Below are positions 32,814-57,525 of a DNA stretch of 64,000 bases, one piece after another; positions within the stretch are counted from its first letter, which is position 1; the number at the start of each line of letters is the position of its first letter. This stretch comes from Sphingopyxis sp. JAI108 (lineage in GTDB: Bacteria; Pseudomonadota; Alphaproteobacteria; Sphingomonadales; Sphingomonadaceae). The position numbers were made by a program, and so were the translations under genes. The stretch spans positions 186,001 through 250,000 of the forward strand of contig NZ_JACCCJ010000001.1 of assembly GCF_013410105.1 (NCBI RefSeq). Reading direction: 5' to 3'. The notes beneath the pieces were generated by a model. That model saw only the letters and a program-made list of their open reading frames with translations, ran no database searches and was not told the origin of the DNA.

Positions 32814-33860
32814 ATGGAAAGTCCGATCCGTGAACTCGCGCGCCGTCTCGGTGAGAATGCCGAGGCGGTTTGCCGCCACTATCTCTCGAACGGTCGCCGC
32901 GAAGGCCATTATTGGATGGTCGGCGATATCGAAAATGCGCCGGGGCGCAGCCTCTATGTGCGTCTCGTCGGCGGCGAGGGTCGCGGGGCGGCGGGCAAAT
33001 GGACCGATGCCGCGACGGGCGAGCATGGCGACCTCATCGACATCATTGCCGCGCGCTGCGCGCATGCGAACCTCGCCGAAACGCTCGCCGAGGCGCGGCG
33101 TTTCCTGAGTCTGCCTTCATCCGATGCCGGGACCCAGGGGTTGCGCCCGCGTCCGCGCCGCGCACGCACTGGCAGCGCAGAAGCCGCGGAAAGGCTTTGG
33201 GCGGCTTCGAAGCCGATCGCGGGGACGCTGGTGCGCGCCTATCTGGCGGGTCGTGCGCTTCGGCGCGGCGGCGATTGGCCCGCGCTGCGATGCCACCCGC
33301 ATTGCTATTATCGCCGATCCGAGGAGGATGGCCCGTCGGTCAAACCGGCCTATCCGGCGATGGTCGCCGCGGTGACCGATCTCGATGGCGCGCTCAGCGG
33401 CGTCCATCGCACTTGGCTCGATCCCGATCGATCGACCAAGGCGGACGTGGCTTATCCGCGCCGCGCGATGGGATATCTCCTGGGCCATGGCGTTCGTTTC
33501 GGGCTCGCGGGCGAGGTCATGGCGTTCGGTGAGGGTATCGAAACCATGCTCTCCTTGCGCGAGATCGCGCCTGCACTGCCGCTCGTCGCGGGACTGTCGG
33601 CGGCACATCTCGCGGCGATCGAATTTCCCGCGCCGCTTCGCCGCCTCTATGTCGCGCGCGAACGCGATGAGGCTGGACGCGCCGCATTCGCCACCCTCGC
33701 CGAGCGAACCGCGCCGCTGGGGATCGATATCCTGCCGCTCGATCCGGCGCTGGACGATCTGAACAGCGATCTCTTGGCGATGGGTCCTTCGCAGCTTGCC
33801 GCTTCGATCGCCGCGCAGATGCACGTCGCCGATGACGCGCGTATGCTGGATGCAGCATGA
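32814..33860 (+). CDS. Toprim-domain, primase-like protein
   Basis: 348 residues. The N-terminal part (SPIRELARRLGENAEAVCRHYLSNGRREGHYWMVGD...GKWTDAATGEHGDLIDIIA) resembles the DUF7146-type primase N-domain. A central unit handles YLAGRAL and VHRTWLDPD. The C-terminal toprim fold includes FGEGIETMLS (catalytic Glu), LPLVAGLSA and VARERDEAGRAA (D-x-D-like acidic site, here ERDEAG). Members sit on plasmids and ICEs and are thought to act in DNA priming or unwinding during transfer. AAGGAG precedes the ATG. Confidence 0.85.
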   Translation: MESPIRELARRLGENAEAVCRHYLSNGRREGHYWMVGDIENAPGRSLYVRLVGGEGRGAAGKWTDAATGEHGDLIDIIAARCAHANLAETLAEARRFLSLPSSDAGTQGLRPRPRRARTGSAEAAERLWAASKPIAGTLVRAYLAGRALRRGGDWPALRCHPHCYYRRSEEDGPSVKPAYPAMVAAVTDLDGALSGVHRTWLDPDRSTKADVAYPRRAMGYLLGHGVRFGLAGEVMAFGEGIETMLSLREIAPALPLVAGLSAAHLAAIEFPAPLRRLYVARERDEAGRAAFATLAERTAPLGIDILPLDPALDDLNSDLLAMGPSQLAASIAAQMHVADDARMLDAA

Positions 33861-35307: not shown

Positions 35308-36231
35308 ATGCGTACCGATCTCGATCAACTCCCGGCGAACAAGCAGCGCGAGCTCGAGCGCGTGAAGGCGATCATCTTCGAAGAATTCGAGGATGCGCTC
35401 GCGCTCGGCACCATGAGCTGGAAGAAGAAGGGCCGGATCGACAAGATCATCCTCTACGGCAGCTATGCGCGCGGCGGCTGGGTCGATGAGCCGCATACCG
35501 CCAAGGGCTATCGCTCGGACTTCGATCTGCTCATCATCGTCAATGACAAGCGGCTGACCGAGCGCGTCGACTATTGGCTGAAGCTCGAGGATCGGCTGAC
35601 CCGCGAACTCGCAATCGACAAGACGCTGCACACGCCGGTGAACTTCATCGTCCACACCCTGCAGGAGGTGAACGACGGGCTCGCGCATGGGCGCTATTTC
35701 TTCATGGACGTCGCGCGCGACGGGATCGCGCTCTACGAATATGACGACAAGGAATTGCACAAGCCGAAGCCGAAGACGCCCGAGCAGGCGCTGGCAATGG
35801 CGCGGGAATATTTCGACGAGTGGTTTCCGGCGGCAATGAAGCGCTTCGGAGGGGCGCAATATTATCGCGAGCAAGGCCATTTCAAAGATGCGGCCTTCGA
35901 CACTCATCAGGCGGTCGAACGCTTGTATCACTGCGTTTTGCTGGTGTGCACCTTCTACACGCCGCATGTTCACAATCTAGGTTTCCTCCGCACACAGGCC
36001 GAGAGGATCGATATGCGTCTCGTCGATGCGTGGCCGCGTGAGCTGAAGGCGGACCGATCGAGGTTCGAGAAGCTCAAGGAAGCGTATGTGAAGGCGCGCT
36101 ATTCGAAGCATTACCGGATCAGCGAGGAAGATTTGATCTGGCTGGCGGGACGTGTCGAAGAGCTTGGCCGGGCGGTGCACGCTATTTGCTCGGAACGCAT
36201 CGCGGAACTGGAAGCTCGCGCTGGCGCATAG
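35308..36231 (+). CDS. Nucleotidyltransferase (MNT) and HEPN fusion protein
   Basis: 307 residues. The MNT motif is YGSYARGGWV (Gly51-Ser52) followed by SDFDLLIIV (Asp71, Asp73). The second half (about 165-300) is a HEPN helical domain with FKDAAFDTHQAVERLYHCVLLVCTFYTPHVHNL and ARYSKHYRI. In two-gene MNT/HEPN toxin-antitoxin pairs the MNT protein modifies and silences the HEPN RNase; here both are in one chain. Role could be self-regulated defence. AAGGAAGG precedes the ATG. Confidence 0.83.
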   Translation: MRTDLDQLPANKQRELERVKAIIFEEFEDALALGTMSWKKKGRIDKIILYGSYARGGWVDEPHTAKGYRSDFDLLIIVNDKRLTERVDYWLKLEDRLTRELAIDKTLHTPVNFIVHTLQEVNDGLAHGRYFFMDVARDGIALYEYDDKELHKPKPKTPEQALAMAREYFDEWFPAAMKRFGGAQYYREQGHFKDAAFDTHQAVERLYHCVLLVCTFYTPHVHNLGFLRTQAERIDMRLVDAWPRELKADRSRFEKLKEAYVKARYSKHYRISEEDLIWLAGRVEELGRAVHAICSERIAELEARAGA

Positions 36232-36642: not shown

Positions 36643-37221
36643 TTAAAGAAGGTCGATATTCTCGCGCAGCATCGAAGCGAGCTTGGGCAGCCCCTTTTTC
36701 TGCAGGTCGAAGATGAACTCGCTCGGAGTGAAGGGCGGCCGTGTGTAGCAGCGCCGCATAGCTGCGAGCGCTGCCAAGGCTTCGGTGGGATAAAGCTCAA
36801 AAGTGCTGGCAAGGAAATCGTCGGCGGAAACCGCGCTGATCCCATATGGTTCGAGCTTCGCATCTGGAAAATCTTTCAGATTCTCCGTCACGATATGTTC
36901 GGCACCTGCGCGGATGGCGGTCGCCAGCACATGGCGATCGTCGGGATCGGGGAGGCCCAGGCTGTCGATTAGATCTGCGCCGCCGGTCACGCACCCTTCG
37001 GGAAAGGCGACCCGCATCGCGGCGATCTGGGCTTCGATGCTGGCCTCATAACCCGGCCTATGGGCGATGAGGTTGCGGCGCCATTCGTCGAGGATCGTGG
37101 GCGACCAGCGCGCGCGGAATAGCCCCGCCTCGGCAAACCGAAGCAGGGCGTCCCTTACCCTGAACGGGTAAAGCACATTCGCGTCGAGAACGACGACGAA
37201 ACGGTCGGCTATGCACCTCAA
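36643..37221 (-). CDS. PIN-domain toxin-like protein
   Basis: 192 residues. Acidic PIN residues are seen in VVVLDANVLYPFRVRD (Asp13) and LPDPDDRHVLATAIRAGAEHIVTENLKDFP. C-terminal extension of 60 residues beyond the PIN fold. PIN proteins of this kind are RNases in VapBC-like pairs. Its start overlaps the stop of the upstream HTH gene by four bases, as expected for antitoxin followed by toxin. Confidence 0.83.
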   Translation of the reverse strand: MRCIADRFVVVLDANVLYPFRVRDALLRFAEAGLFRARWSPTILDEWRRNLIAHRPGYEASIEAQIAAMRVAFPEGCVTGGADLIDSLGLPDPDDRHVLATAIRAGAEHIVTENLKDFPDAKLEPYGISAVSADDFLASTFELYPTEALAALAAMRRCYTRPPFTPSEFIFDLQKKGLPKLASMLRENIDLL

Positions 37222-37667
37222 TCCGCGTCGAACTCCTGGCCGAGGCGCTGGAGATCGGCGAGCGCACCGCTTCGCTCCGCATCGCGCTGCGCTCGAAACG
37301 CGAGCACGTCACTCGCCCGCACCCGTCGATGCGATCCGACCTTGTGGAACGGAATCTTCCCGTCACTCAGCATCGACACCAGGAAGGGGCGCGACACATT
37401 CAATAGGTCGGCCGCTTCCTTCGTCGTCAGTTCCGCTCCGTAGGGAACGAAGGTCACCATTTCGCCGCGGGCCACATGCGTCAGCACATCGAGAACCAGC
37501 TGTCCGAGAGCCGGTGACAAGTCCACCTCGGTCCGACTGCCGTTTCGCTGCACGGAGAAGGGAAGGCCCTTGGGGGTGAGTGCCTTGGCGAGCGCCCGCG
37601 CGGCCTCCGATGCCTGTCGCACTTCTGTATCTGTAGGGGGCCGCTGGGAAAGCTCCTGATCGCTCAT
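37218..37667 (-). CDS. Excisionase-type HTH antitoxin
   Basis: 149 residues from ATG 37667, with GAGGAG upstream. The C-terminal MerR/excisionase-like HTH is LTTKEAADLLNVSRPFLVSMLSDGKIPFHKVGSHRRVRASDVLAFRAQRD. The N-terminal half is helical. It forms an overlapping pair with the PIN gene, so it is the likely antitoxin and autorepressor. Confidence 0.85.
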   Translation of the reverse strand: MSDQELSQRPPTDTEVRQASEAARALAKALTPKGLPFSVQRNGSRTEVDLSPALGQLVLDVLTHVARGEMVTFVPYGAELTTKEAADLLNVSRPFLVSMLSDGKIPFHKVGSHRRVRASDVLAFRAQRDAERSGALADLQRLGQEFDAD

Positions 37668-38330
37668 ATCATTCTCCTCGCTGCCGGGGCCGGCCCTATA
37701 TAGAGCCAGAACGGCAAACGCAATAAGTGAAATATGTGCAATAAACGTAAATTGCCATGAATGGTTGCTGAAGCAACAGGTCGGGCTCCACGGGGCCTCG
37801 AATGACATCCGATGAACATTCTTGATCATGCCGGTGTCAGGCGTCATTCGCGGGATTCTGGTTGCGATGGATACAATATGTTGCCCTGGCGCATCAAAGT
37901 CAGAAATTCCGTCACGGCAACCGAAGTTCCTCTGACAACGATGCTGAATTCCGAAAGGAGCGCAGCGCGACCCAATGGAGGGCTCCTCCATTCGCGTTTG
38001 CCTGACAGCTATGCGCCTCATTTCGACCGATCAGGTCACCACCGCGCGACACCCGAAAGCGGACGTCGGAGTGCCATCATCTAAGGCGTAGTCGGCCGTG
38101 AAGCGCATTCGGGAAAACTGCTATTCGCATTGCGTCGGAGCAAGGCGTCTTCTTCGTACCCCATCGAGGCGGTTCAAAGACAGCGTCGCACTGAGCCCGA
38201 AACCGGGCATTCTATGCGCGCGCAAAGGTCGATTGCTACGCGCCGTGTCACCTTCGCCGGAACAAAGCGTCGCAAACGGCGCGGCAGATATCTGTATGGC
38301 TTCGGTGCCAACCTCTGGGCTCTGAAAAGA

Positions 38331-38601: not shown

Positions 38602-39855
38602 ATGGCACATTTGATTAAAGCGGTCAAAGGCTCGTTCTTTGGCACTCCTTACTGGTCCGGAAAGATGAAACTCGCCGCGATCAGCAACGTCATCAAGCCG
38701 CCCGCGGATTCCATGTGGGACGAAATTTTTGAAGGTCATAGCGCGCAACGCGACCTGACCAAATCGCGCGTGATGAACGATATGGTCCCCTATCTTCTGA
38801 AGCCCGACTATCATCCCTTTTTCTCGGCGCTGACGTTGATCCTCGTTCCGGTCGATGGCGAGCATCTGGTCGAAGGCACCGACTATAAGTTCAAGGCCGG
38901 CGATGAGGATGGCGATGTCGGCGAACTGGTGATCGAGGACCAGGTCCTGCTGTTTCCGGCCGACGGCCAGCACCGGCAGGCGGCCCTCGCCGAGGCCTTT
39001 CGCCAGCGCAAATCGCTCGCAACCGAAGAAGTGCCCGTCATCCTGCTGCCGTTCGACAGCGTCAAGCGGGTGCGTCAGCTCTTCTCCGACCTCAACCTCA
39101 ATGCGAAGATCGTCAGCAAGACCCTCGGCCTTAGCTACGAAAGCCGGAACCCCGTCGTCGTCGTCGCGAACCGCGTGATGAAGGAATCGGCGCTGTTCGA
39201 TGGCGGCAATCGCGTGAACCTCAAGAGCAATTCGCTCGCGGCGAAGTCGCCGGCGGTGATCTCGATGAACACCCTCGTCGAAGTCACGCAAACGCTTCTC
39301 GCGGCGGTGCTCGAGACGACGGTCAAGGGGCTCAAGACGCATCCCGACATGCTTGCGATCGAAAACGCCGATCCCGACGATGCCGAGGTGATGACGGTGG
39401 CGCAGAAGGTTGTCGAAGCCTGGGAGGTCATCGTCGATGCGTTCCCGCGCTGGCAGGATGTCATCGACGGCGAAATCTCGGCGGGCGCGCTGCGCGACGG
39501 GGTGAAGAATGCCGAGGGCGAGCTGCTCGACGACGGTTATGTCGCGGCCTTCGGAATTGGCTGGCAGGCGCTGGGCCTGATTGCGGCGGCGGTCATCCGG
39601 ATCGAGGGCGACGACTGGAGCGAACAGCTCGAGCGCGCGATCGGATCGGTCGACTGGCAAAAGGGACCGCAGTGGAACGGTACCGCGATGATCGGCGGGC
39701 GCGTCAACAATACCGGTCCCGGCATTCGGAACACCGCGGGCTATGTCCTCGACAAGGCCGGCTACGGCGACACCGACGACGACGAGGCACAGGCGCTGAT
39801 CGATAGCGCGCGCACCGCGATCGCCGCGACCGCCGAAGTCGCGGCGGCCGAGTGA
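38602..39855 (+). CDS. DGQHR-domain protein (DndB/ParB-like)
   Basis: 417 residues. The motif DGQHR at 121-125 (LFPADGQHRQAALAEAF) defines the DndB-like ParB-related family. DndB binds DNA and regulates or tunes phosphorothioate modification, but no dndA or dndCDE genes are in this window. Other segments: SRVMNDMVPYLLKPDYHPFFSALTLIL, LFSDLNLNAKIVSKTLGLSYESRNP. It stands alone between a gene-poor stretch and a DUF736 gene. It is the third protein of this motif class in the window but carries DGQHR, not DGQQR. A strong terminator follows. Confidence 0.83.
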   Translation: MAHLIKAVKGSFFGTPYWSGKMKLAAISNVIKPPADSMWDEIFEGHSAQRDLTKSRVMNDMVPYLLKPDYHPFFSALTLILVPVDGEHLVEGTDYKFKAGDEDGDVGELVIEDQVLLFPADGQHRQAALAEAFRQRKSLATEEVPVILLPFDSVKRVRQLFSDLNLNAKIVSKTLGLSYESRNPVVVVANRVMKESALFDGGNRVNLKSNSLAAKSPAVISMNTLVEVTQTLLAAVLETTVKGLKTHPDMLAIENADPDDAEVMTVAQKVVEAWEVIVDAFPRWQDVIDGEISAGALRDGVKNAEGELLDDGYVAAFGIGWQALGLIAAAVIRIEGDDWSEQLERAIGSVDWQKGPQWNGTAMIGGRVNNTGPGIRNTAGYVLDKAGYGDTDDDEAQALIDSARTAIAATAEVAAAE

Positions 39856-39979: not shown

Positions 39980-40085
39980 GGGGCGCGGCTTCCGGTGCCA
40001 TCAACCGGAATTTTCCCCGCCTTCAGCTCCTCGCGGAGCAAAATTCCGGTTCCCCGCTGCCGCGGTGATGGCTCCCGCGCGCCCC
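39980..40085. repeat. Large nested palindrome in a DUF736 leader
   Basis: Four nested perfect stems around one axis: GGGGCGCG (39980-39987) with CGCGCCCC (40078-40085); GCCATCA (39997-40003) with TGATGGC (40066-40072); AACCGGAATTTT (40003-40014) with AAAATTCCGGTT (40040-40051); and GCTCC-TCGC-GGAGC (40026-40039). The unit ends 57 bases before the DUF736 start. Confidence 0.85.
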
Positions 40086-40142
40086 TGTCCGGCGCCGCGT
40101 CGCGGGGCGGACCGGCCGCTTCCCGCCAAGCGGAGACAGGTT

Positions 40143-40436
40143 ATGGCATTGATTGGCATATTCGAGGCGGAGGGCTCAGGCTTTCACGGCACCATCGAGA
40201 CCTTTCTGGCGGTTCTTGCGGTCCGCTTCGAGTCCGTCGTGGGCGGCCCCGAGGCCGCGCCCGATTATCGCATCTATCGCGGCAACGCCGAAATCGGCGC
40301 GGCGTGGAAACGGCAAACCAAGGCCAATCGGCGCTATCTTGCCGTTATCCTCGATGATCCCTCGTTGCCGCGCCCCATTGAATGCCGGCTGGTCCAAGCC
40401 GACGGTGCCTGGAACCTCATGTGGTCGCGGACCTGA
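40143..40436 (+). CDS. DUF736 domain protein (first copy)
   Basis: 97 residues. DUF736 marks: GIFEAEGSGFHGTIETF, APDYRIYRGNAEIGAAWKRQTKANRRYLAVILDDPSLPRPIECRLV, and MWSR at the end. Small soluble proteins of conjugative elements, function unknown. ATG 40143 is preceded by GGAGACAGGTT. Its 3' end overlaps the convergent HAD gene by 20 bases. Confidence 0.87.
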   Translation: MALIGIFEAEGSGFHGTIETFLAVLAVRFESVVGGPEAAPDYRIYRGNAEIGAAWKRQTKANRRYLAVILDDPSLPRPIECRLVQADGAWNLMWSRT

Positions 40437-41223
40437 CGCCTCCCCGCGCTCGGTGCGCTATAGCGAGGCGCACGATTGCGGGAACCTCGCTGAAATTCGT
40501 GATGATATGGTCGGGCCGGATCGCTTCGACCTCGGGTGTCCAGCGCGGCTGAAACCCGCCCGGGTAATAGATAGTGCGAAGGCCCGCTGTCTTGGCAGGA
40601 GCGATGTCGCGGTCGAGCTGGTCGCCGATCATGAAGGCTGTGGGCGGCGTTCCGGTCAGCCGCAAAATGCGCCGGTAGAGATCGGGCCGTTTTACACCCT
40701 CGACGATGCGCGTGAAATGTCCACGAAGACCCAGCCGCTCGGCATTGCGTTCGACCTTGGCCGCGTCTCCTTCCGAAATGATGAGGACGGTTGCGCCCTC
40801 GGCGATCAGTCTGCGGAGACCCGCTTCGACGCCGGGGCGCAGTTGCGGAGGGGCGCCAAGGTCCGCAAAATAGGCTTGTTCGATCTCGGATATGGCGGCT
40901 TCGGCCAGTGAAGGTCCGAGCGTCCCGGTAAGCGCGCGGCGTGCCGCACGATCGACATCCTCGCCGACCAAAGCCGCAGCGAGCGAGGCGATCAACAGGC
41001 GCGGCGGGTAACGAAGACCAGCATGATGGCGCTCCGCGATGACTTGGTCGGCGGCGCGGACGAACTCCAGTCGATCTTCCCCGTCGAAACGCCGCCCAAC
41101 GACATGCTCGACCGCTGTAAGCAGGTTGACCTGGGCGCCCGCAAAGACGGCGTCGGTATCCCAAAGCGTGTTGTCGGCATCGACGAAGATCGTGCTCGCG
41201 CCTTTTGCTGCCAAGTTATTCAT
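40417..41223 (-). CDS. HAD superfamily phosphatase, last gene of the deazaguanine operon
   Basis: 268 residues. HAD motif I is FVDADNTLWDTD, motif II VLIISEGD, motif III Lys in VEGVKRPDLY, motif IV FMIGDQLDRDIAPAK, so the active site is complete. The family removes phosphate from small molecules or nucleotides. It is the last of nine genes read leftward from 48586; its start overlaps the membrane protein stop (ATGA). It could act on a deazaguanine or a nucleotide signal, but this is inference. Confidence 0.85.
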   Translation of the reverse strand: MNNLAAKGASTIFVDADNTLWDTDAVFAGAQVNLLTAVEHVVGRRFDGEDRLEFVRAADQVIAERHHAGLRYPPRLLIASLAAALVGEDVDRAARRALTGTLGPSLAEAAISEIEQAYFADLGAPPQLRPGVEAGLRRLIAEGATVLIISEGDAAKVERNAERLGLRGHFTRIVEGVKRPDLYRRILRLTGTPPTAFMIGDQLDRDIAPAKTAGLRTIYYPGGFQPRWTPEVEAIRPDHIITNFSEVPAIVRLAIAHRARGGVRSATT

Positions 41224-42461
41224 TTCGCTCCAGCAACCTTCTTCTCTGCCGGATGAGGAGGCCGCGCGGGGAGCCTTATGTCGATAGGCGTGCCGATCGT
41301 GATGGGAACCGGTGCGGCTGGAGCGATGAGCCGGACATCGCTCGCCGGCTGCACCTGTCTGGGCAAAAACGCCTGAATCGCGGCGATCAGGATGACGAAC
41401 AGCAGTAACGACCGCAGCGCCCAGGCAAGCAGACTTTGGGCGGGGCCGAGATAGCGAAGCTTGTCGGCCGCCTTGGCAGCGATCAAATAGGTTTCGATCA
41501 CCTGGTTCTTGAAGTATTTTTCCTTGAGATCGGCATGCAGGATCGTCTTACCGTCTGCTTTTTTGATAAAGGAATCCGCCCAGCCTTGCGGCGAAACCGC
41601 GATGATTTCGCGGTAGAAGAGGAAAGAGCGCGTGTGTCCCTTCTGCCGTGCGGCGGTCGCTTCCTTAGAATATTTGAATCGAGTGCGTGTCGCGTGAAAG
41701 GTTATCAGCGCACCGCCGATCGCGGCGATCACAAAGACTAGGAAGCTCAAATAGGCGAAGAGCAACGCGAACCTCCATCCACCGCTCAAAATGGCGAGCA
41801 TCTTGAGCGGATAGGCGGTACTGAACGCGGCAAAGAGGGCGCCCGAAAGCGCACTCAAAAAGGTCGTTACCGTGAGCAAACGTGTCGCCTTCTGATCTTG
41901 ATATTCAGTCTGCTCCTTGACCTCGCTAAATGACATCTTGGCGAGATCGATGGCGTCGTCGATCGTTGGCGCTTTCGTGGTAGGCAGCGCGAGGGCCGCC
42001 TCTGCTTTTAGGCGTAGCGCGGCGATCTCGGTCTCCGTGCGCTTGCCCGGCTTGACCAATTCTTCGAGGATCGCTTTCGTTTCCTCGAGCGGATCTATAC
42101 CCTCGGCGCCAAAAGGGGTCGTCCAACCTTCCATCGCCTTGGGAAGTTCGCGCAGCAGTGCATCCGATTTGAGGCTGACGACCGACTGTTTATATTGCTT
42201 GGGCTCGGCCCATCCTCGGGCCCATAGATGCGGACGCCAGCTTTCGGGAAAGCGTAGTAGCAGCTTTTGGCAGGATTGCTTGACGCGATAGCGCCAGATC
42301 GGCCGCTCGCGGTTCAGGCGGGGATAAAAATCGACGTCGGCATCGCGTGCCGAAAGCCAGAGCGCGCTTGGCCAGCGCAAGTTCGCCTTGGTCTTAATTT
42401 CGGTTTTTGCATCGTCGCCGGTCGGCGTCTGGTCCGCCATTTGCTCCCCGATGTCCGTCAT
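41220..42461 (-). CDS. Membrane protein of the deazaguanine operon, possible effector
   Basis: 413 residues. A soluble N-terminal half of about 190 residues is followed by membrane helices at about 196-214, 231-256 and 349-366, and a Pro-rich tail ([31 protein letters not shown]). The helix-pair region after [20 protein letters not shown] resembles in layout membrane effectors of nucleotide-signalling defence systems, but I see no diagnostic motif. No family named with confidence. It overlaps queC upstream and the HAD gene downstream by four bases each, so it belongs to this operon. Confidence 0.8.
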
Positions 42462-43162
42462 TTTGCTCCCTCGCGATAGGCGTCATAACCCCGCGCGCGA
42501 ATGTCGCAGGCGGGGCAGGTGGCACAGCCATAGCCCCATGGATGACGCGTCGTCCGATCGCCGGTGTAGCAGGTGTGGCTTTGCTCGACGATGAGATCGA
42601 CCAATTCGTCGCCGCCAAGCGTCTCGGCGAGCCCCCAGGTCGCCGCCTTGTCGAGCCACATCAGCGGGGTGTGAAGGACAAATTTCTGCGCCATGCCGAT
42701 GTTGAGCGCGACCTGCAGCGCCTTGATCGCGTCGTCGCGGCAGTCGGGATAGCCCGAGAAATCGGTCTCGCACATCCCGCCGACGATGTGCCGGAGCCCG
42801 CGCCGGTAGGCGAGCGCGGCGGCGAAGGTCAGGAAGAGAATATTGCGGCCGGGGACAAAGGTGTTCGGCAGGCCGTTCTCGTCCATGGCGATCGCGACAT
42901 CGCGGGTGAGGGCGGTGTCCGACACCGCACCGAGCGTTTCGAGGCCGAGGCTATGATCCGCGCCGATACGTCCCCCCCAAGCGGGCTTGATGCCCCCGAT
43001 GCGCGCGAGAATCTCGCATCGGCACGCGAGTTCGACATGATGCCGCTGGCCATAATCGAAGGCGAGCGTCTCGACGGTCTCGAAGCGGTCGAGTGCCCAG
43101 GCGAGGCAAGTCGCCGAATCCTGACCGCCCGAAAGCAATACCAATGCGCCCGTGTCGTTCAT
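42458..43162 (-). CDS. queC: 7-cyano-7-deazaguanine (preQ0) synthase QueC
   Basis: 234 residues. PP-loop [18 protein letters not shown] at the N-terminus, [21 protein letters not shown] in the middle, [19 protein letters not shown], and C-terminal zinc ligands HTCYTGD and [15 protein letters not shown]. It converts 7-carboxy-7-deazaguanine to preQ0 using ATP and ammonia. ATG 43162 overlaps the queD stop by four bases. In this operon it supplies preQ0 for DpdA. A chromosomal queC for tRNA queuosine may exist elsewhere. Confidence 0.95.
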
Positions 43163-43533
43163 GCCGTCACCTCCGGACCGTGATAGACGCAGGTCTCGCC
43201 GCTGCTGTCGCGAAAGACGGTGACACGCGCGAGATTGCCGACCGCGGGTTCGAGGCGGCGCCAGATCCACAAACAGAGATTTTCCATCGTCGCAGGCCCC
43301 AAATCGTTGATCTCGTCGAGAAAACGATGATCGAGTGCTTCGTGCGCGTCGAACAGCGCGGCCTCGAGCACGCCAAGATCGACAATCATCCCGCTCGCCG
43401 GATCGGGCGTGCCGCGCACCGTCACTTCGGCGCGGTATGAATGGCCGTGGATGCGCCGGCTCGATTCGGTTTCGATCGCGCGCTGGAGCGTATGCGCGGC
43501 GTCGAAGCGGAATTGTTTGGATAGCTCAAACAT
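43159..43533 (-). CDS. queD: 6-carboxy-tetrahydropterin synthase QueD
   Basis: 124 residues. Zinc ligands His in RFDAAHTL and HGHSY (with [13 protein letters not shown]), catalytic pair in [10 protein letters not shown], and Glu in [10 protein letters not shown]. Makes 6-carboxy-5,6,7,8-tetrahydropterin from dihydroneopterin triphosphate, step two of preQ0 synthesis. It lacks the usual Cys of QueD in the short N-terminal loop ([15 protein letters not shown] has none), so activity should be checked. ATG 43533 overlaps the queE stop by one base. Confidence 0.88.
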
Positions 43534-44165
43534 CAGGCTATTCCGATCATCTTGTGGGTCTGGAGACTGAGCCTCCAGCCCGGATTGGCGAGACAATAAG
43601 CGACGGCGGCCCGCGTGTTGGCCTCACGCTCGGGGCCATCCATGGGCTGGAGCCAGAAATGCTCGAAATCAAGCCCCGCGAAACGCTCGGGCGGCGCATC
43701 GGCCTGCGGATAGACGAGTTTGAGTTCGCTGCCCGTCTGTTGCGCGAGTGGGGCGGTCGATTTGGGGCTGACGCATATCCAGTCGATACCCGCGGGCGCG
43801 ACGAGTGTACCGTTGGATTCGATGGCGATATCGAAACCCGCGTCCTTGAGCGCAGCGACGAGCGCGGCGTCGAGTTGGAGCAGCGGTTCGCCGCCGGTGA
43901 ACACGACGAGCGCGGGGCGGGCGTCCGACGACCAGGCAGCAAGGATCGCCCGCGCCAGATCGTCCGTCGTCGCGAACCGTCCGCCGCCTTCGCCGTCCAT
44001 GCCGACGAAATCGGTATCGCAAAAGGTGCAGACCGCCGTGGCCCGGTCGGCCTCGCGCCCCGACCAGAGATTGCAGCCCGCGAAACGGCAAAAGACCGCC
44101 GCGCGCCCGGCCTGTCCGCCTTCGCCCTGCAGCGTCTTGAACAATTCCTTGACCGCATAGGCCAT
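43533..44165 (-). CDS. queE: 7-carboxy-7-deazaguanine synthase QueE
   Basis: 210 residues, radical SAM. The cluster motif is C-x14-C-x2-C (GCNLWSGREADRATAVCTFCDTDFVG), the QueE variant rather than C-x3-C-x2-C. Also VKELFKTLQGEGGQAGRAAVFCRF, VVFTGGEPLLQLD, IAIESNGT, and WLQPMDG. It contracts carboxy-tetrahydropterin into the deazaguanine ring. It lies three bases after the first DGQQR gene. Together with QueD and QueC it gives preQ0 from the GTP-derived pterin; folE (GTP cyclohydrolase) is not in the operon. Confidence 0.95.
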   Translation of the reverse strand: MAYAVKELFKTLQGEGGQAGRAAVFCRFAGCNLWSGREADRATAVCTFCDTDFVGMDGEGGGRFATTDDLARAILAAWSSDARPALVVFTGGEPLLQLDAALVAALKDAGFDIAIESNGTLVAPAGIDWICVSPKSTAPLAQQTGSELKLVYPQADAPPERFAGLDFEHFWLQPMDGPEREANTRAAVAYCLANPGWRLSLQTHKMIGIA

Positions 44166-44168
44166 GGC

Positions 44169-45275
44169 CTATCCCTCCATCGTCTGTAGCATCGGCGTCG
44201 GTTCGGCTTTCTCGGCACGCCGCGCGCGAATATCAGCGCGGACGATATCGATCAGATATTGGGCAAGCAGCACGACGTCGCGATTGACATTCTGGACCGC
44301 GCGCCAGTTCCGGCGATCGCCGTCGGCAAAGGCCCATTCGCCTGACGTCCAGGCGGTTTTGCCGCGCAGGCACTCAAGGCCCAGTTCGAAATCGTCGCGC
44401 GTGCGCGCATCGTCGAGATCGAACAACACTTCCATCACATAGCCGAGCGCCATGATGCCGGCGCCGTGAACGAGGCGCGATGTCTTCGGATTATGGCCCT
44501 TCCAGTCGGTGGCAAACACGTTGCGGACCGCTTGATAATAGTCTGCGATGAGGACGAGGCAGGCGTCGCGGCCATCGGCGCGGCGCAGCAACGTCCGCAT
44601 CGCACCATCGTTGACGCTGTTCATGATCACGCGTTGAATCGCGGTATCGCGAATGATGCCCACGGGATTGGTGTGCTGGTGAATAAGCCCGCGGAATGGC
44701 GACCAGGGATCATAGTTGAGCGCGGCGGTCAGTTCGGCGGCGAAGGAGCGCTCGGCGAGGCGGTGCGGCAGCCCCTCGACCTGCGGTAACAGTTCGTAAA
44801 TCAGCGACTTGGGCAGCGGCTTGGTGCTGTTGATGAGCACAAATTGGCGGCGCAGTTCAGCCTCGTCCTCGCACGCCACCGCCGAGACGAAGACCTCGAA
44901 ATCGCGTTCAACCTGCATCAGCGCCGAGAGCCGCTGCTGGCCGTCGACGACCAAACCGGGCGGTCCGCCTTCGACGTCGATCGCGATCGTGCAGCGGCCG
45001 TTCTCGTCCATATCTTCGATCGTCAAATTCCTTGTGAACGCGATGACGAGCGGATTGGGAAGGATCGCATCCTCGGTTTCGAGATAGTCGCGAATCTCGC
45101 GAATATGCCCCGCGACCTGCGGGCGCTGGAATCCGGTGAGCACCCCTTGGGCGTCACGAGCGACGCGGTCGATCGAGGCGAAGCGCAGGACGTCAGAGGC
45201 GCGCGCTGCAAATGAGAGGACTTGATGCCGCTCGCTCTGGCGGGCTCGGATCGCCGAAAAGCGTAGGATCGACAT
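44169..45275 (-). CDS. DGQQR-domain (DndB/DpdB-like) protein, copy next to queE
   Basis: 368 residues. DGQQR at 111-115 (GLVVDGQQRLSAL), with TGFQRPQVAGHIREIRDYLE upstream and RRQFVLINSTKPLPKSLIYELLP downstream. Aligns by eye along its length with the other DGQQR protein (46557-47678): GFQRP..., V/IVDGQQR, Q/EFVLIN/VNK, ELLP. The family is ParB/DndB-like and DNA-associated; DpdB of known deazaguanine islands belongs to it. Its first 83 bases overlap the dpdA 3' end in another frame. The start is supported by alignment with the paralogue. Confidence 0.85.
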   Translation of the reverse strand: MSILRFSAIRARQSERHQVLSFAARASDVLRFASIDRVARDAQGVLTGFQRPQVAGHIREIRDYLETEDAILPNPLVIAFTRNLTIEDMDENGRCTIAIDVEGGPPGLVVDGQQRLSALMQVERDFEVFVSAVACEDEAELRRQFVLINSTKPLPKSLIYELLPQVEGLPHRLAERSFAAELTAALNYDPWSPFRGLIHQHTNPVGIIRDTAIQRVIMNSVNDGAMRTLLRRADGRDACLVLIADYYQAVRNVFATDWKGHNPKTSRLVHGAGIMALGYVMEVLFDLDDARTRDDFELGLECLRGKTAWTSGEWAFADGDRRNWRAVQNVNRDVVLLAQYLIDIVRADIRARRAEKAEPTPMLQTMEG

Positions 45276-46560
45276 CTTGGTTTCCTTTCAGTTCGAGGCC
45301 ATCGACGAGACCGTCGAAGACCGTCATATTATGCATGCCGCGCCGCTTGTTGCGGTTGCTCGCGCGGAAAATAATTACCTCGATCGACGCCGTCCGGCAG
45401 ATCTTGCAGCGGCATTGGGTCCACGGGCGTTCGGCCAAGGTCCGATAATAGCGCTCGCGCAAGGTGCCGACGCTCTTCGAGCCGGGCAGGCGCTCGATCG
45501 GTGCCCCAAGCGTCGCTGGGACCGAATAGGCCAGCACCGCGTCGAGCGTCTCGTTCAGATCGGCGTCGTTCTTATCGTAGCGGCGCAGCGCGCCGAGCGC
45601 TGCCTTTTCAAGCGCGACCAGTTCTTCTTGGCGCAGCGCACCCTGTTTGACGAGTCCCATCAGGCGATTATTCTCGAGCGCCTGTGGCACCCGGATCGCG
45701 GTATAATAGCGCAGGCTCCCGTCGCCATTCGGCAGATAGTAATTTTTGGCGGCATCCTTGAACGCGCGGATCATCGGCGAGGCGGTGTCGAAACTGGTGA
45801 TCGCGAAGTTGGTGAAACTCGCGATCTCGTCGGCGCGCGCGAACCCCAGTACATGGAGGCGGGTCGCTGCGGGGATCGCGTCGCGGATCGCGGCGACGCA
45901 CGCGCGAAGTTGCGGCGTTTTCAACGGCACGGTGCCGCCGACCGCGAGATAATCATAGCCCATCGCCACGAGACGGCGCGCGGCCTCGGCCATGCTCGGC
46001 GGCGACCACCCCTGGATCACCCCTAGCGGGGTGAAGCGCGCGCGCATCGGCGCGGTCGCGCGTAGAAATGTCTCTGCATTGGCGAGCGTTATGTCATAGC
46101 GCTCGCGCGATTCAGGCGAGCCGCCGTTCAAGCCGCTGACGCTCTCGTCATTTTCGAAAATGATATGGTCGACCGAGCAGCCGTGGGTGAAGCCGACATC
46201 GTCGTAAAAAGCGGCAGTATCCTCGGACGAATAGGGCGGCAGCGCTTCTTTGTGATAGCTGAACGCGCCGCAATCGCCGAAGATCGGCAGGTCACGCAGC
46301 CCGTCGCGATCGAGGCGCAGGAACGCGCGCGCGCCGACGCGGCGGAGCCTCATCGCCTGGGCTTCGCTATATTTGCCGCCGACGGCGTGCCCCCCGACGA
46401 TCGCGCGCGAGATGAGCATGCCCTTGTACGGTGCGCGGTCGAGAATCTCGTGCGGATAGAGGTCGTCCCAATAGGGCTTGCGCCCCAAAGAATTGCTGTC
46501 CTTGACGAAATCATAGCCCGGATCGACGACGTCGAGGCTGTCGGCGTAAATGAACCTCAT
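45193..46560 (-). CDS. dpdA: DpdA-type transglycosylase (TGT-like)
   Basis: 455 residues from ATG 46560. TGT-like marks in order: GDCGAFSY (95-102, cf. DSGGFQ), PLGVIQGWSPPSM (178-190), YLAVGGTVP (204-212), HVLGFA (236-241), Asp258 in SFDTASPMIRA (cf. the nucleophile region DCVMPTR), and zinc ligands Cys383, Cys385, Cys388, His410 (CRCKIC...GMH). The tRNA enzyme swaps guanine for preQ1/queuine; DpdA homologues insert preQ0 into DNA. Its partners here (QueC/D/E, DGQQR proteins) point to DNA, not tRNA. The start overlaps the upstream DGQQR stop by four bases. Confidence 0.9.
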   Translation of the reverse strand: MRFIYADSLDVVDPGYDFVKDSNSLGRKPYWDDLYPHEILDRAPYKGMLISRAIVGGHAVGGKYSEAQAMRLRRVGARAFLRLDRDGLRDLPIFGDCGAFSYHKEALPPYSSEDTAAFYDDVGFTHGCSVDHIIFENDESVSGLNGGSPESRERYDITLANAETFLRATAPMRARFTPLGVIQGWSPPSMAEAARRLVAMGYDYLAVGGTVPLKTPQLRACVAAIRDAIPAATRLHVLGFARADEIASFTNFAITSFDTASPMIRAFKDAAKNYYLPNGDGSLRYYTAIRVPQALENNRLMGLVKQGALRQEELVALEKAALGALRRYDKNDADLNETLDAVLAYSVPATLGAPIERLPGSKSVGTLRERYYRTLAERPWTQCRCKICRTASIEVIIFRASNRNKRRGMHNMTVFDGLVDGLELKGNQDVDPTLFGDPSPPERAASSPLICSARL

Positions 46561-47678
46561 TTGCTGATCCGCGACAGGCGGCGGTCGAGCAACATCAGAT
46601 GGTCGCGCAGGCGCGTGATATGCTGCGGGGTCGACATGACCTCGTTCCACGCCCAGCCCAGTTCGTCCCATTCACCCTCGATCCAGCGGCAATAGGGGGC
46701 GATGCGTTCGAGCGAGGCGCGCACTTCGGCGCCCGGGTCGCTCATGCCGTCGGCGCGGATCATGATTTGGTCCATCAGCGCGCCGACGGTCCGGATGCCC
46801 GCCGAATGCATCAGCCGGCTATCCTCGGGCGGCTTGCCCCAGGCGTCGGGGAAGGCGTCGCGCACCGCCGACCAATATTGGACGAGCGCGCGATACATCG
46901 CGTTCGTGTCGCCCGAGGTGCCATTGCCTTTATGCTGGCCGAGCGCCCCCGACGCGTCCTTGAGGCTGCCGGCGATCGCCTTGGTCAGCGCCGAATCGGT
47001 GATAACGCCGCCTTCGCCTTTGACCGAGGGGCGGCGCAGCAATCCGTAGAAGGGCGACTTCGGGTCTTCGGCCAGTTCGCTGCACAGCGCGCTCGGCAAT
47101 TTTCGCGCGGCGAGGTCGCGCGGCAGGACGACACCCACCTCGGGCAGCAATTCGTCGATCAGTCGCGCCGACAGGCCGCGCACCTTATTCACGAGGATGA
47201 ACTGCTCGCGCAGCGTGCGCAGGTCGCGACTCTCGAAGCCGACGACCGGCACGACGATATCCTTGCTCTTCGCCTGCGCGAGCGCGAGCGAGCGCTGCTG
47301 CCCGTCGACGATCCACGCCACCCGGTCGCCCTCGGGCAAGATCGGGAGCTTGAGAACGCCGCCCTGGCTCAGGTCCGCGCAATCCCTGGGCGGCTTGCCG
47401 CCGTTGAGTTGGAAGCTGACGTCGGGGGCGAGCGCGAGAATGATCGCGTTCGGGAACAGCGCGGGGCCGGCGTCGAGGAAATCGACAATCTCTTTGACGT
47501 GGCGCTTGATCTCGGGGCGCTGGAAGCCCTTGAGCTCGCCATTGTTGCGTTCGAGCCGCGAAATATCGGCGATCCGGGCGATGTCGGCGCCGCGCAGGAA
47601 GAAGCTGTAGACGGCGACACCGTCGCCCTGGACCGCACGCGTTGCGCGCACCTGCACCATTTTAATCGCGTCGGTCAT
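46557..47678 (-). CDS. DGQQR-domain (DndB/DpdB-like) protein, copy upstream of dpdA
   Basis: 373 residues. DGQQR at 125-129 (VAWIVDGQQRSLALAQ), GFQRPEIKRHVKEIVDFLD, REQFILVNKVRGLSARLIDELLPEV. It is a paralogue of the protein at 44169-45275. ParB/DndB-like members bind DNA and some hydrolyse nucleotides. Two unequal copies around dpdA suggest a heteromeric partner complex, which is inference. Start 47678 overlaps the upstream gene stop by one codon edge, so the genes are coupled. Confidence 0.87.
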   Translation of the reverse strand: MTDAIKMVQVRATRAVQGDGVAVYSFFLRGADIARIADISRLERNNGELKGFQRPEIKRHVKEIVDFLDAGPALFPNAIILALAPDVSFQLNGGKPPRDCADLSQGGVLKLPILPEGDRVAWIVDGQQRSLALAQAKSKDIVVPVVGFESRDLRTLREQFILVNKVRGLSARLIDELLPEVGVVLPRDLAARKLPSALCSELAEDPKSPFYGLLRRPSVKGEGGVITDSALTKAIAGSLKDASGALGQHKGNGTSGDTNAMYRALVQYWSAVRDAFPDAWGKPPEDSRLMHSAGIRTVGALMDQIMIRADGMSDPGAEVRASLERIAPYCRWIEGEWDELGWAWNEVMSTPQHITRLRDHLMLLDRRLSRISK

Positions 47679-48586
47679 TATCCCGCCTCCCGTTCGGTAC
47701 GCATGTCGCGCACCAGCCGTGCAAACCGGCCCTGTTCGCACGCGACGCCGAGTTCATCGCGGAAGATGCGCAGCATCTGGGATGTCTTGCCGCCGGCGCG
47801 GTCCCAGATCTGGGTCACGATTGCGCGGATCTCGGCATCGCTGCGCCGCGCGCCGCTGTTGATGGGCGACGCCTGCCAGTGCGCCAGTGCCCGCTCGACT
47901 GCGGCGGCATGGCCGGCAGCGTCCGCCGTCTCGCATCCCGGATAAATCTCGGCGGCAAAATGGAAGGCCGCGCGCGCGACAAAATCGGAGCGTGTTCCCG
48001 CGTGGCCCGCGCCGCCTCCGAGCCGGTCGTCATAAAGCAAGGTCCAGGGCAGCAACGACGCGAGCAGCCGGCCCGGACGCTGGACGATGCGCAGATGATC
48101 GCGCTGATCAACAGGAAGCGCGAGCAACTCCTCCTCGATCATCTCGAGATACGCGCGCGGCAGCGCGACCACAACAAGACCCGCCGAAACGGCGAGCGCC
48201 TCGGCGAGGGGAGTGGCAAAGCGCGAGTGGGCACCGAGCCAGGTCCACCAGTCGCGCGCACCCGCACCGCCTTCGATCCGCGCAAGGACATTGTCGCCGC
48301 CCTCGACCACCGACATGCCATAGGCCGGGATTGGCGTGTCAGCGCGTACCCAGCCCAGTCCCGCCGACGTGAAGAGTAGGTCGGCGCCCAGCAATTTGGC
48401 GGCTTCCTCGGCACTCCGGACGCTGCGACCACAATAAAGATCGCTCGCGGGCGTGCGTGGCAGCGAGGTGATACGCGCCATCCAATCCCGTCCCACGGCC
48501 TCGATCGAACCGCCCGCAAGGTCGGCTGCCCGCATTCCGGGCAAGACACGCTTGCGATTTGAGCAGGCGGCAATCAGGAGCGGCAT
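47678..48586 (-). CDS. First gene of the deazaguanine operon, YaaA/DUF6884-like
   Basis: 302 residues. N-terminal LLIAACSNRKR, then SDLYCGRSVRSAEEAAKLLGADLLFTSAGLGWV, VSAGLVVVALPRAYLEMIEEEL. This A-C-S-x-x-K plus S-A-x-x-G pattern resembles YaaA/DUF6884-type proteins, some of which bind DNA or nucleotides. The C-terminal 70 residues (SDAEIRAIVTQIWDRAGGKTSQMLRIFRDELGVACEQGRFARLVRDM) look like a winged-helix-type unit. Its place at the head of the operon and coupling to the DGQQR gene mark it as a core component. Exact role unknown. Confidence 0.78.
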   Translation of the reverse strand: MPLLIAACSNRKRVLPGMRAADLAGGSIEAVGRDWMARITSLPRTPASDLYCGRSVRSAEEAAKLLGADLLFTSAGLGWVRADTPIPAYGMSVVEGGDNVLARIEGGAGARDWWTWLGAHSRFATPLAEALAVSAGLVVVALPRAYLEMIEEELLALPVDQRDHLRIVQRPGRLLASLLPWTLLYDDRLGGGAGHAGTRSDFVARAAFHFAAEIYPGCETADAAGHAAAVERALAHWQASPINSGARRSDAEIRAIVTQIWDRAGGKTSQMLRIFRDELGVACEQGRFARLVRDMRTEREAG

Positions 48587-55202: not shown

Positions 55203-55991
55203 CCTGTCGAGCGGGAATTCAAGCTCGTGACGCTCGCGGGCTTCGTCCTCATCCCCTTCGCCTTCTTCGGGCGGACGGCGTTTATGGCCGAGCGCGTGCT
55301 TGGCCATATCATTTCCTCAGGCATCAAAGTTTTGGTGCTCGCGGTCATCACCGGCATCGGGACGACCTTGTTCGACCGCTTCCTCGATGCCGGCATCGGT
55401 CCTGAACCCGATATCGAGCAGGCGATGGCGATCGCGCTCGGGGCGCTGACGCTTCTCGGTCTCGGCATTTTCGGACCCAGCGTCGCCAATGGCATCGTCG
55501 CGGGCGGGCCGCAGCTCGGAGCCGGCGCCGCCGCAGGGACCACGGTCGCGGCGGGCGCGACCTTGGCCGCCGGTGCAGCCGGTGCGACGCTCGCGGGGGG
55601 AGCGGCGGTGACCGCAGCGCGCGGCGCTGCCGCAGCTGGCGCGCGCGGTGCCGGCGGCGCCTCGGCCGCCTATTCCGCGGGAGCAGCCGGGAAGAGCGGT
55701 GCGGAAGCGGTCGGTTCCGGTCTCGCCAATGTCGCGCGGAATGCCGCGAGCGGCGCCGCATCGCCGCTCCGCCGCGCCGCGGAAAAGCTGCGAGCGAACT
55801 TCGAGGCCGGGAAGGACGGGGCCGCCGAACGCCCTGCGGCCGCGCGGCCTGCAGACAGCCCGCCTGCTTGGGCGGCCGCGATGCGCCGCCGGCAGATGAT
55901 GACGCAGGGCGCCACCATCGGCGCCCACACTCTCAAGGGCGGCGACAGCCATGGCGGCGGCTCGGTTCCCGACATCAGCGAAAAGGACTGA
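55203..55991 (+). pseudogene. trbL: trbL, 5'-truncated
   Basis: The frame from about 55203 encodes the C-terminal two-thirds of TrbL: PVEREFKLVTLAGFVLIPFAFFGRTAFMAERVLGHIISSGIKVLVLAVI, then ALTLLGLGIFGPSVANGIVAGGPQLGAGAAAG and an Ala/Gly-rich tail ending VPDISEKD. Full TrbL is usually 400 or more residues with an N-terminal helical part that is absent here. Upstream (54864-55202) is unrelated sequence with a stop at 55128, so a deletion joined it. A GTG at 55227 could still start a fragment. Confidence 0.8.
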
Positions 55992-55993
55992 TC

Positions 55994-56677
55994 ATGTTCA
56001 AGAGACCCACGAACCATTATGGCCGCGCGCCCGAGCCGGTCACGCCTTATCAGCGCGCGGCCCAGGTCTGGGACGACCGCATCGGGTCGGCGCGGGTGCA
56101 GGCGAAGAACTGGCGGCTCGCCTTCTTCGGTTCGCTTCTGCTTTCGGGGGGGCTCGCGTGCGGCCTTATCTGGCATTCGGCCCGCGGCACGATCACGCCC
56201 TGGGTGGTCGAGGTCGACCAGCTTGGCGAGGCCCGCGCCGTCGCGCCAGCGGACGAAGATTATCAGCCGACCGACCCGCAGACCACGTTCCACCTTGCCC
56301 GCTTCATCGAGCATGTCCGCTCGATTCCCGCTGATCCGGTCGTGCTGCGCAAGGACTGGCTCTCGGCCTATGACTTCACCACCGCAGCGGGCGCGCAGGC
56401 GCTCAACGATCATGCGCGAAACAACGACCCCTTCGCAGAGGTCGGGAAAGTCCAGGTCGCGGTCGATGTCTCGAGCGTGATCCGCGCCTCGAAGGACAGC
56501 TTTCGCATCGCCTGGACCGAGCGCCGCTATCAGGACGGCCGCCTGATCGAGACCTCGCGCTGGTCGGCCATTCTCACCGTCACCCATGTGCCGCCACGCA
56601 CCCCCGACGCGCTCCGCCGCAATCCGCTCGGCGTCTTCGTATCCGCTATTTCATGGTCAAAGGAGCTCAGCCAATGA
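55994..56677 (+). CDS. trbF: Conjugal transfer protein TrbF
   Basis: 227 residues. MFKRPTNHYGRAPEPVTPYQRAAQVWDDRIGSARVQAKNWRLAFFG followed by one membrane helix (SLLLSGGLACGLIWHS) and a VirB8-like periplasmic domain (FIEHVRSIPADPVVLRKDWLSAYDF). Inner-membrane part of the type IV mating channel. It starts two bases after trbL and overlaps trbG by four bases. Confidence 0.93.
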   Translation: MFKRPTNHYGRAPEPVTPYQRAAQVWDDRIGSARVQAKNWRLAFFGSLLLSGGLACGLIWHSARGTITPWVVEVDQLGEARAVAPADEDYQPTDPQTTFHLARFIEHVRSIPADPVVLRKDWLSAYDFTTAAGAQALNDHARNNDPFAEVGKVQVAVDVSSVIRASKDSFRIAWTERRYQDGRLIETSRWSAILTVTHVPPRTPDALRRNPLGVFVSAISWSKELSQ

Positions 56678-57525
56678 ACGCCACTTTCCGAATTCCCCTG
56701 CTCGCTGGCGCCGCCGCATTCGCGGTGATGTCGCCCTTGAACGCTGCCGAAACCCGCGATCCCAGGCAGAATGTCGGGCGTGCCAATGACGCCGCGCGCG
56801 TGCAGCCCGATCGCGCGACCTTCCTCAATGCGATTCAGAAATATGCCTGGGCCGAGGGTGCGCTGTACCAGGTCTATGCATCGCCGGGCCAGGTCACCGA
56901 TATCGTGCTGCAGGAGGGCGAGGAGCTGGTGGGGCCGGGGCCGGTCGCTGCCGGCGATACGGTCCGCTGGATCATCGGCGATACGGTGAGTGGTAGCGGC
57001 GCAGGCCGCCGGGTGCATATCCTCGTGAAGCCGACGCGGCCCGATATCATGACGAATATCGTCATCAACACGAGCAGGCGGACTTATCATATCGAGCTGC
57101 GCGCGACACCCGCGACCTATATGGCCTCGGTATCCTGGTCTTATCCGGAAGCGGAGCTGATAGCGCTTCGGGCCGAGGCGGCGGAGCGCGCACGGGTTAC
57201 GCCGATCGCGGCCGGTGTCGATCTTACCGCGCTCAATTTCCGCTATCGCCTGTCGGGCGACAAACCCGACTGGCGGCCGGTGCGGGTCTTCGACGACGGG
57301 CGGCAGCTCTTCATCGAGTTCGGCGAGGATATCGCGACGGGCGAGATGCCGCCGCTCTTTGCCACAGGCGCGAAGGGCGAGGCCGAGCTTCTCAACTACC
57401 GTGTCCAGGGGCGCTTCATGACCGTCGACCGGCTGTTCGCGCGCGGCGAGCTTCGCATGGGTGCCGGCCGCGCCGCGCGCAAGGTGGTGATCGAACGCGT
57501 CGGACGCGATCGGGGTAACTCGTGA
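56674..57525 (+). CDS. trbG: Conjugal transfer protein TrbG (VirB9-like)
   Basis: 283 residues. Signal peptide, then YQVYASPGQVTDIVLQEGEELVGPGPVAAGDTVRWIIGD and HILVKPTRPDIMTNIVINTSRRTYHIELRATPATYMASVSWSYPE, the VirB9/TrbG core. Periplasmic/outer-membrane ring of the channel. AGGAG precedes ATG 56674; it overlaps trbI as GTGA. Confidence 0.94.
   Translation: MNATFRIPLLAGAAAFAVMSPLNAAETRDPRQNVGRANDAARVQPDRATFLNAIQKYAWAEGALYQVYASPGQVTDIVLQEGEELVGPGPVAAGDTVRWIIGDTVSGSGAGRRVHILVKPTRPDIMTNIVINTSRRTYHIELRATPATYMASVSWSYPEAELIALRAEAAERARVTPIAAGVDLTALNFRYRLSGDKPDWRPVRVFDDGRQLFIEFGEDIATGEMPPLFATGAKGEAELLNYRVQGRFMTVDRLFARGELRMGAGRAARKVVIERVGRDRGNS

Follow-up and report, generated by a model that had tools for sequence, protein, structure and literature searches.

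Dpd systems are described as restriction-modification systems, which mark self DNA and attack DNA that lacks the mark. The present analysis concerns an operon of this type from Sphingopyxis sp. JAI108, located in a stretch of 64,000 nucleotides (contig NZ_JACCCJ010000001.1, positions 186,001 to 250,000), which is called the window throughout. Judged by profile scores, seven of its nine genes (dpdC, dpdB1, dpdA, dpdB2, queE, queD and queC) are a standard Dpd (7-deazaguanine-in-DNA) cassette, and the last two encode a membrane protein (TM) and a HAD-superfamily phosphatase (HAD). On balance, we favor by a modest degree the reading of a Dpd modification operon near conjugation genes that would end in a two-gene effector or signalling module.

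The chemistry of DpdA, DpdB and DpdC used here follows the accessible portions of PMC11888242 and PMC12839542. The same portions of PMC11888242 give preQ0 genes for ~27% of the Dpd islands, describe islands devoid of a restriction operon and count extra dpdB copies (n = 801). Two further described systems are relevant to the TM-HAD pair. According to the parts of PMC11224242 available, PycTM of Pycsar is activated by cyclic pyrimidines and disrupts the membrane, and a membrane HAD phosphatase of type III CRISPR (Chp) depletes ATP and IMP, according to those of PMC12715507.

Composition of the operon

Nine leftward genes in near-continuous overlap had been proposed in a preliminary description made from the letters of the window, and all of them were present on the minus strand, tightly packed from position 48586 down to 40417 (Table 1). 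The junctions, read from the sequence, were TAATG for dpdC/dpdB1, TGATG for queE/queD and ATGA for dpdB1/dpdA, queD/queC, queC/TM and TM/HAD. These are overlaps of 1-4 nt, with two exceptions: dpdB2 and queE are separated by a 3-nt gap, and dpdA and dpdB2, in two different frames, overlap by 83 nt (45193-45275); among 35 loci with both genes this overlap measured 83 nt in 9/35 and 4 nt in 11/35. Some of the open reading frames (ORFs) are readable from positions before the ATG: dpdB1 from 47741 (ATG at 47678, overlapping the dpdC stop), dpdA from 46671 (ATG at 46560), queD from 43596 (ATG at 43533) and queC from 43270 (ATG at 43162). Promoter-like sites were at chance level (2 observed vs 2.3 in shuffles, standard deviation 1.4), terminator-like sites numbered 15 vs 10.1 in shuffles (standard deviation 3.0), and the repeats were short ones only.

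The gene identities guessed earlier were sharpened by profile searches, and two names had to be replaced: the "YaaA/DUF6884-like" gene is dpdC by its PADLOC match, DUF6884 being unmatched in Pfam, and the two DGQQR proteins are both DpdB, scoring above the cut-off of NF041060.

Table 1. Features of the window, with their coordinates, strand and supporting matches.
Feature	Coordinates	Strand	Evidence
DpdC, predicted preQ0 to ADG conversion on the inserted base	47678..48586	-	PADLOC PDLC02815 264 bits, residues 3-299
DpdB1, first DpdB paralogue	46557..47678	-	NF041060 407 bits (cut-off 300); B1 clade
DpdA, DNA-guanine transglycosylase	45193..46560	-	NF041059 534 bits; 7ui4 316 bits
DpdB2, second DpdB paralogue	44169..45275	-	NF041060 390 bits (cut-off 300); B2 clade
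QueE, 7-carboxy-7-deazaguanine synthase, Cx14CxxC type	43533..44165	-	TIGR04508 347 bits (cut-off 240)
QueD-type 6-carboxytetrahydropterin synthase	43159..43533	-	PF01242 105 bits; TIGR03367 76 bits, under cut-off 89
QueC, preQ0 synthase	42458..43162	-	PF06508 223 bits; TIGR00364 194 bits (cut-off 150)
TM, membrane protein, PycTM superfamily	41220..42461	-	PADLOC PycTM 3e-6; domain at about residues 166-365
HAD-superfamily phosphatase, constant TM partner	40417..41223	-	PF00702 56 bits; model pLDDT 92.5
DndB-family DGQHR protein, likely associated	38602..39855	+	PF14072 185 bits; DndB equivalog 141 bits, under cut-off 328
DUF736	40065-40436		
PIN-domain protein and HTH_17 protein, overlapping frames	36643-38021	-	
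Fused nucleotidyltransferase and HEPN protein	35308-36231	+	
DUF7146/Toprim	32814-33860		
VirB8, CagX/VirB9 and TrbI/VirB10 conjugation genes	55868-58733		

The modification cassette

The proposal of a 7-deazaguanine DNA-modification cassette was supported by DpdA, whose score was 534 bits with the curated model NF041059 (cut-off 200) and 22 bits with the family of tRNA-guanine transglycosylases (TGT). Its sole match among solved chains at E <=0.01 was the DNA-guanine transglycosylase 7ui4 (316 bits, residues 36-452). The C-x-C-x2-C...H pattern, which we take to be a TGT-like motif, was found in 39/39 DpdA sequences, and GDCGAF in 34/39. DpdA is thus of the DNA type rather than a TGT acting on tRNA; a separate canonical TGT is encoded in the same genome (one copy, 521 bits). 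Neither are the que genes of the operon the only ones of this genome: a second QueC (237 bits) was found elsewhere, so that the operon QueC is an additional copy. The Cx14CxxCxxC cysteine spacing was common to the operon QueC and 35/36 dpd QueCs (the remaining one has 13), whereas the other QueC of the genome has a shorter Cx9 spacing.

Of the proteins that characterize Dpd systems, profile scores identified DpdA, DpdB (in two copies) and DpdC, which is optional in some islands; of the preQ0 supply enzymes FolE, QueD, QueE and QueC, the search covered and found the last three. The cassette is very probably functional, and the gene set probably swaps some host guanines for a marked version. Base modification in the Sphingopyxis host, the part played by each DpdB and all the TM-HAD steps considered further below are inferences. 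QueD, QueE and QueC would make preQ0, DpdA together with the two DpdB paralogues would insert it into DNA, and DpdC would convert the inserted base to ADG, self DNA being marked in this way.

Recurrence of the nine-gene order

A collection of genomes from 84,980 species, each represented once, was scanned with an alignment of five TM relatives, yielding 29 loci from 77 candidate stretches; with four plasmid loci and one viral contig, 34 TM loci besides the window were available. The scan returns only loci with short conserved patterns, so the counts given here are not prevalences, and the gene calls in the fetched loci are mechanical ORFs. One further locus, L116 (G963), is the same as L032, with identical proteins and a contig of equal length, and was not counted as new.

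HAD adjoined TM in 34/34 loci, always in the same orientation, and all seven core cassette genes lay in the fetched DNA of 28/34. A search for the same order in other genomes had been suggested at the outset, and its recurrence in loci found via TM means that the nine-gene order is not due to chance. The dpdA gene was present in the fetched DNA of 30/34 loci, and on the same contig (L038 and L051) or the same 33.9-kb record (L060) in three more, giving 33/34. At E 1e-20 the HAD clade was found in 4/396 genomes of the order, every one of them in a dpd island, and in 1/385 genomes of the class, which was that of the window. The TM query had matches in two of the 385 class genomes, the window's own and a weak broken fragment (E 3.2e-4).

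TM is a relative of PycTM

By its profile matches, TM is a member of the Pycsar-effector (PycTM) superfamily. The window TM alone matched the PADLOC PycTM model (Table 1), as did 30/31 members of the TM family at E <=0.01, and the profile-profile comparison (hhalign) of 27 TM members with 20 PF18967 proteins gave a probability of 95.5% (E 1.4e-8), compared with 0.2% for a control profile of three VUT transporters. The residues invariant in 31 TM sequences include S177, E180, T185, Y187, D189, K191, E323, Y325 and K330. Three hydrophobic regions were predicted, and the AlphaFold2 (AF2) model (pLDDT 79.7) showed three long helices. A YhhQ/VUT-type transporter was also considered for TM and is not supported, on account of the VUT control and of the annotated Rhizobiaceae records, in which VUT genes are separate genes beside TM; one of the 31 TM ORFs matched Pfam Vut_1 at 3.8e-9.

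Position of the TM-HAD pair

In three loci (L050, L051 and L055) the TM-HAD pair closed the restriction operon, directly after DpdD; two of these, L050 and L055, had it convergent with the modification operon. In L038 the pair lay beside a huge helicase and a protein of 770 aa, with the cassette beyond these. Because of these layouts, we place the pair with the restriction/effector genes of Dpd islands, to which it would belong. The TM label also changed along the DpdA tree, where at least five changes on starred branches are needed and its clustering was no better than in shuffles (223/500 as low). Together with the exchangeable slot described in the next section, this is the behavior of an accessory module. 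An effector or signalling function of TM-HAD seems to us slightly more likely than a metabolic one.

Several observations weigh against an effector role. The Pfam PycTM family PF18967 was not reached by the window TM alone and was matched by just 6/31 family members at E <=0.05 (best 1.1e-5), and fold searches with TM were uninformative. PF18967 was present in 30/398 genomes of the phylum, and the genome of the window has one such protein, other than TM, at another place; such proteins being common, membership in the superfamily is by itself no sign of defence. No pyrimidine cyclase PycC was matched among the 21 window proteins scanned with Pfam (smaller ORFs were outside the scan), so that the signal would have to differ from that of Pycsar. 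L058 has a TM-HAD pair and no dpdA in its assembly. Finally, the pair ends the modification operon in most loci, coming after queC either directly or with a VUT transporter gene in between, a position that fits a metabolic role too.

Under such a role, HAD would be a nucleotidase for the clearance or salvage of 7-deazaguanine nucleotides that arise in DNA turnover, and TM would be a transporter or the membrane anchor of HAD. Besides the position after queC, the type I fold of HAD is consistent with it, its many relatives including nucleotidase-like ones. We nevertheless regard this alternative as quite unlikely: the full cassettes of L023-L026 and L028 include queC and no TM-HAD pair in the fetched DNA, the pair closes the restriction operon in the three loci mentioned above, and the TM profile is related to PycTM and not to VUT.

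The HAD phosphatase and its exchangeable partner

The catalytic residues of HAD (D15, D17, K178, D201 and D206) were invariant in 19 sequences. In two islands, L111 (G056) and L117 (G986), dpdC-B1-A-B2 and queC were present, no TM was found in the stretch, and HAD was preceded by an unrelated protein, here called X, whose two copies are 37% identical. The slot preceding HAD is therefore exchangeable, a reading that rests on two loci, a small sample. Neither copy of protein X had a Pfam family or a plasmid match; the L111 copy had no PADLOC family, the L117 copy had no phage match, and no viral contig relative was found. Protein X is a new Dpd-linked protein and a candidate for study, and the exchangeable partner before HAD offers a handle on which signal is read.

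With a partner that changes and a HAD that stays constant with its catalytic residues retained, HAD itself could be the effector, with TM serving as its sensor and anchor in the membrane; this would resemble the membrane CARF-HAD protein Chp, split over two genes. This arrangement is rather doubtful. No CARF domain was detected by Pfam in TM or HAD, the alternative partner X has no Pfam family, and conserved HAD residues are reportedly non-essential for the toxicity of BbChp in the accessible part of PMC12715507.

A HAD of the same family without the N-terminal part was also observed on a Sinorhizobium fredii plasmid (L075, 8971-9612), with no dpd genes annotated in the fetched flank, and is probably a relic.

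Restriction partners

Restriction signatures were detected in the fetched DNA of 28/34 TM loci. They were of the DpdD/DpdK/DpdJ type in nine loci, of the DpdF type in three, a UvrD helicase with a PD-(D/E)XK nuclease in nine (L041 being also in the DpdD/DpdK/DpdJ group), a nuclease alone in one (L053), and a family-less protein of ~770 aa beside a huge helicase in seven. The cluster labels are those of single-linkage clusters made here, of which c8 lumps DpdJ with another large helicase. Six TM loci had no restriction signature in the fetched DNA (L020, L033, L036, L056, L058 and L060); of these, L033 and L056 are short contigs (9 and 13 kb), and L058 has its TM close to the end of a contig. 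Signatures were likewise found in 6/8 of the dpd loci without TM (L023-L030).

In the window no restriction signature was clustered. The genome-wide search covered four module models and was run without a positive control: those of the 770-aa protein and DpdD found nothing, and those of the UvrD helicase and DpdF matched in part only, with best scores of 74 and 186 bits, in ORFs that by their size suggest the housekeeping UvrD, AddA and RecQ. The absence of an obvious restriction set, as first described, thus holds for clustered signatures in the window and for full-length matches to these four models in the genome. The suggestion that the membrane protein and the phosphatase stand instead of restriction is no rule, both being carried by 28/34 relatives, which also rules out TM-HAD as a general replacement of restriction.

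These results bear on another explanation, an anti-restriction coat, in which the cassette would only hide the DNA of the element from restriction in new hosts, as deazaguanine does in phages, TM and HAD being side genes of an island that does not attack foreign DNA. The conjugation genes of the window and the lack of clustered restriction signatures or full-length model matches agree with it, as does the protection of phage DNA by deazaguanine reported in the available portion of PMC6884629. Restriction signatures are nonetheless retained in the 28/34 relatives, and TM-HAD is retained here beside the cassette with its catalytic residues intact. We consider the coat unlikely.

Two of the arrangements seen in the relatives deserve mention on their own. 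The ~770-aa protein that adjoins Dpd cassettes together with a very large helicase after it (L044, 13597-15909; L034, 11629-13917; and another six members of cluster c13) is a candidate new restriction module; no match was found for it in Pfam (two copies) or PADLOC (one copy). The UvrD-type helicase and PD-(D/E)XK nuclease pair (L022, 1920-5517, and relatives, in 9/34 TM loci) is a candidate second restriction module. Both helicase-linked modules are candidates for study.

The two DpdB paralogues and the DndB-family neighbor

The DpdB tree was built from 77 DGQxR proteins (34 DpdB1, 36 DpdB2 and 7 DndB-like rows), the input being ORFs of 300-480 aa only, with merged or split ORFs costing L039, L056, L057 and L059 one row each. 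DpdB1 and DpdB2 separated with two label changes each, the minimum being one and the shuffled means 25.5 and 25.8, and the seven DndB-like rows formed one starred clade. The DGQxR motif was retained in 34/34 DpdB1 and 36/36 DpdB2 proteins (one of the latter as DGQHR). This pattern suggests that the two long-lived paralogues flanking dpdA have different roles, for example in a mixed complex, and the deep split is a candidate for study. The two DGQQR proteins had been listed among the unusual parts of the operon; their presence stands, both being DpdB, and their novelty does not, nor does that of an island without restriction, in view of the extra dpdB copies and restriction-less islands already in print. 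No mention of the B1/B2 split was found in the passages of PMC11888242 available.

The DndB-family gene beyond the end of the operon is convergent with HAD, and this arrangement beside TM-HAD was present in 6/34 loci. Plasmid relatives of its product outside Dpd islands are mostly annotated dndB (22-28% identity).

Surroundings of the operon

Given the conjugation genes, the DUF7146/Toprim gene and the DUF736 gene (Table 1), the operon is probably part of an integrative conjugative element. A Methylobacterium plasmid (L026) encodes a relative of the nucleotidyltransferase-HEPN protein (2189-3175, 49% identity) near its dpd cassette, and the PIN and HTH_17 genes look like a toxin-antitoxin pair.

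Proposed action of the TM-HAD pair

In the effector or signalling reading, the likeliest scheme is that TM would be a membrane effector, triggered by a nucleotide ligand or by failed discrimination between self and non-self, and that HAD would act on a nucleotide, for example by removal of the ligand. The pair may form an antiviral arm of its own, for alarm or self-sacrifice. Any one ligand scheme is unlikely at best. In one that we regard as a long shot, the effector slot would be centered on HAD, and its exchangeable occupant, a cyclase-free PycTM relative, would sense 7-deazaguanine nucleotides released from the phage-degraded host chromosome, while HAD would erase the self-derived signal in healthy cells. 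If this were true, the DNA mark would be a self-label and an alarm source at once.

Comparison with known systems

BRIGADE, the Dpd-like hybrids of haloarchaea, shares with this locus the deazaguanine synthesis genes, and its nucleases are exchangeable; it differs in being built on archaeal YprA helicases, and the accessible text of PMC12458937 has no mention of Pyc, HAD or transmembrane proteins. The CARF-HAD (Chp) effectors of type III CRISPR, as far as the available portions of their description go, share the HAD phosphatase domain (PF00702) and a membrane protein, whereas here two genes are involved, no CARF was found by Pfam in the TM members or HAD, and there is no CRISPR link. TM belongs to the PycTM superfamily, as in the two-component Pycsar (PycC cyclase and PycTM effector); the differences are that no cyclase was found among the scanned window proteins, that the partner is a HAD phosphatase and that the pair is linked to DNA modification. 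In the literature searched, including the accessible parts of PMC11888242, PMC12458937 and PMC13329287, with supplements and primary Dpd papers outside its reach, Dpd islands were not found described with a pair of PycTM-like and HAD proteins.

Compared with the Dpd islands themselves (dpdA-C with dpdD-K), DpdA, DpdB and DpdC with QueC, QueD and QueE are the same, and relatives of the operon adjoin DpdD, DpdK, DpdJ or DpdF. In this genome no restriction operon was found by the four models tried, and the locus differs further in its two DpdB clades, its DndB-family neighbor and the added TM-HAD pair. The occurrence of this PycTM-related membrane-phosphatase pair at the end of either operon suggests a second, signalling or abortive arm in some Dpd islands.

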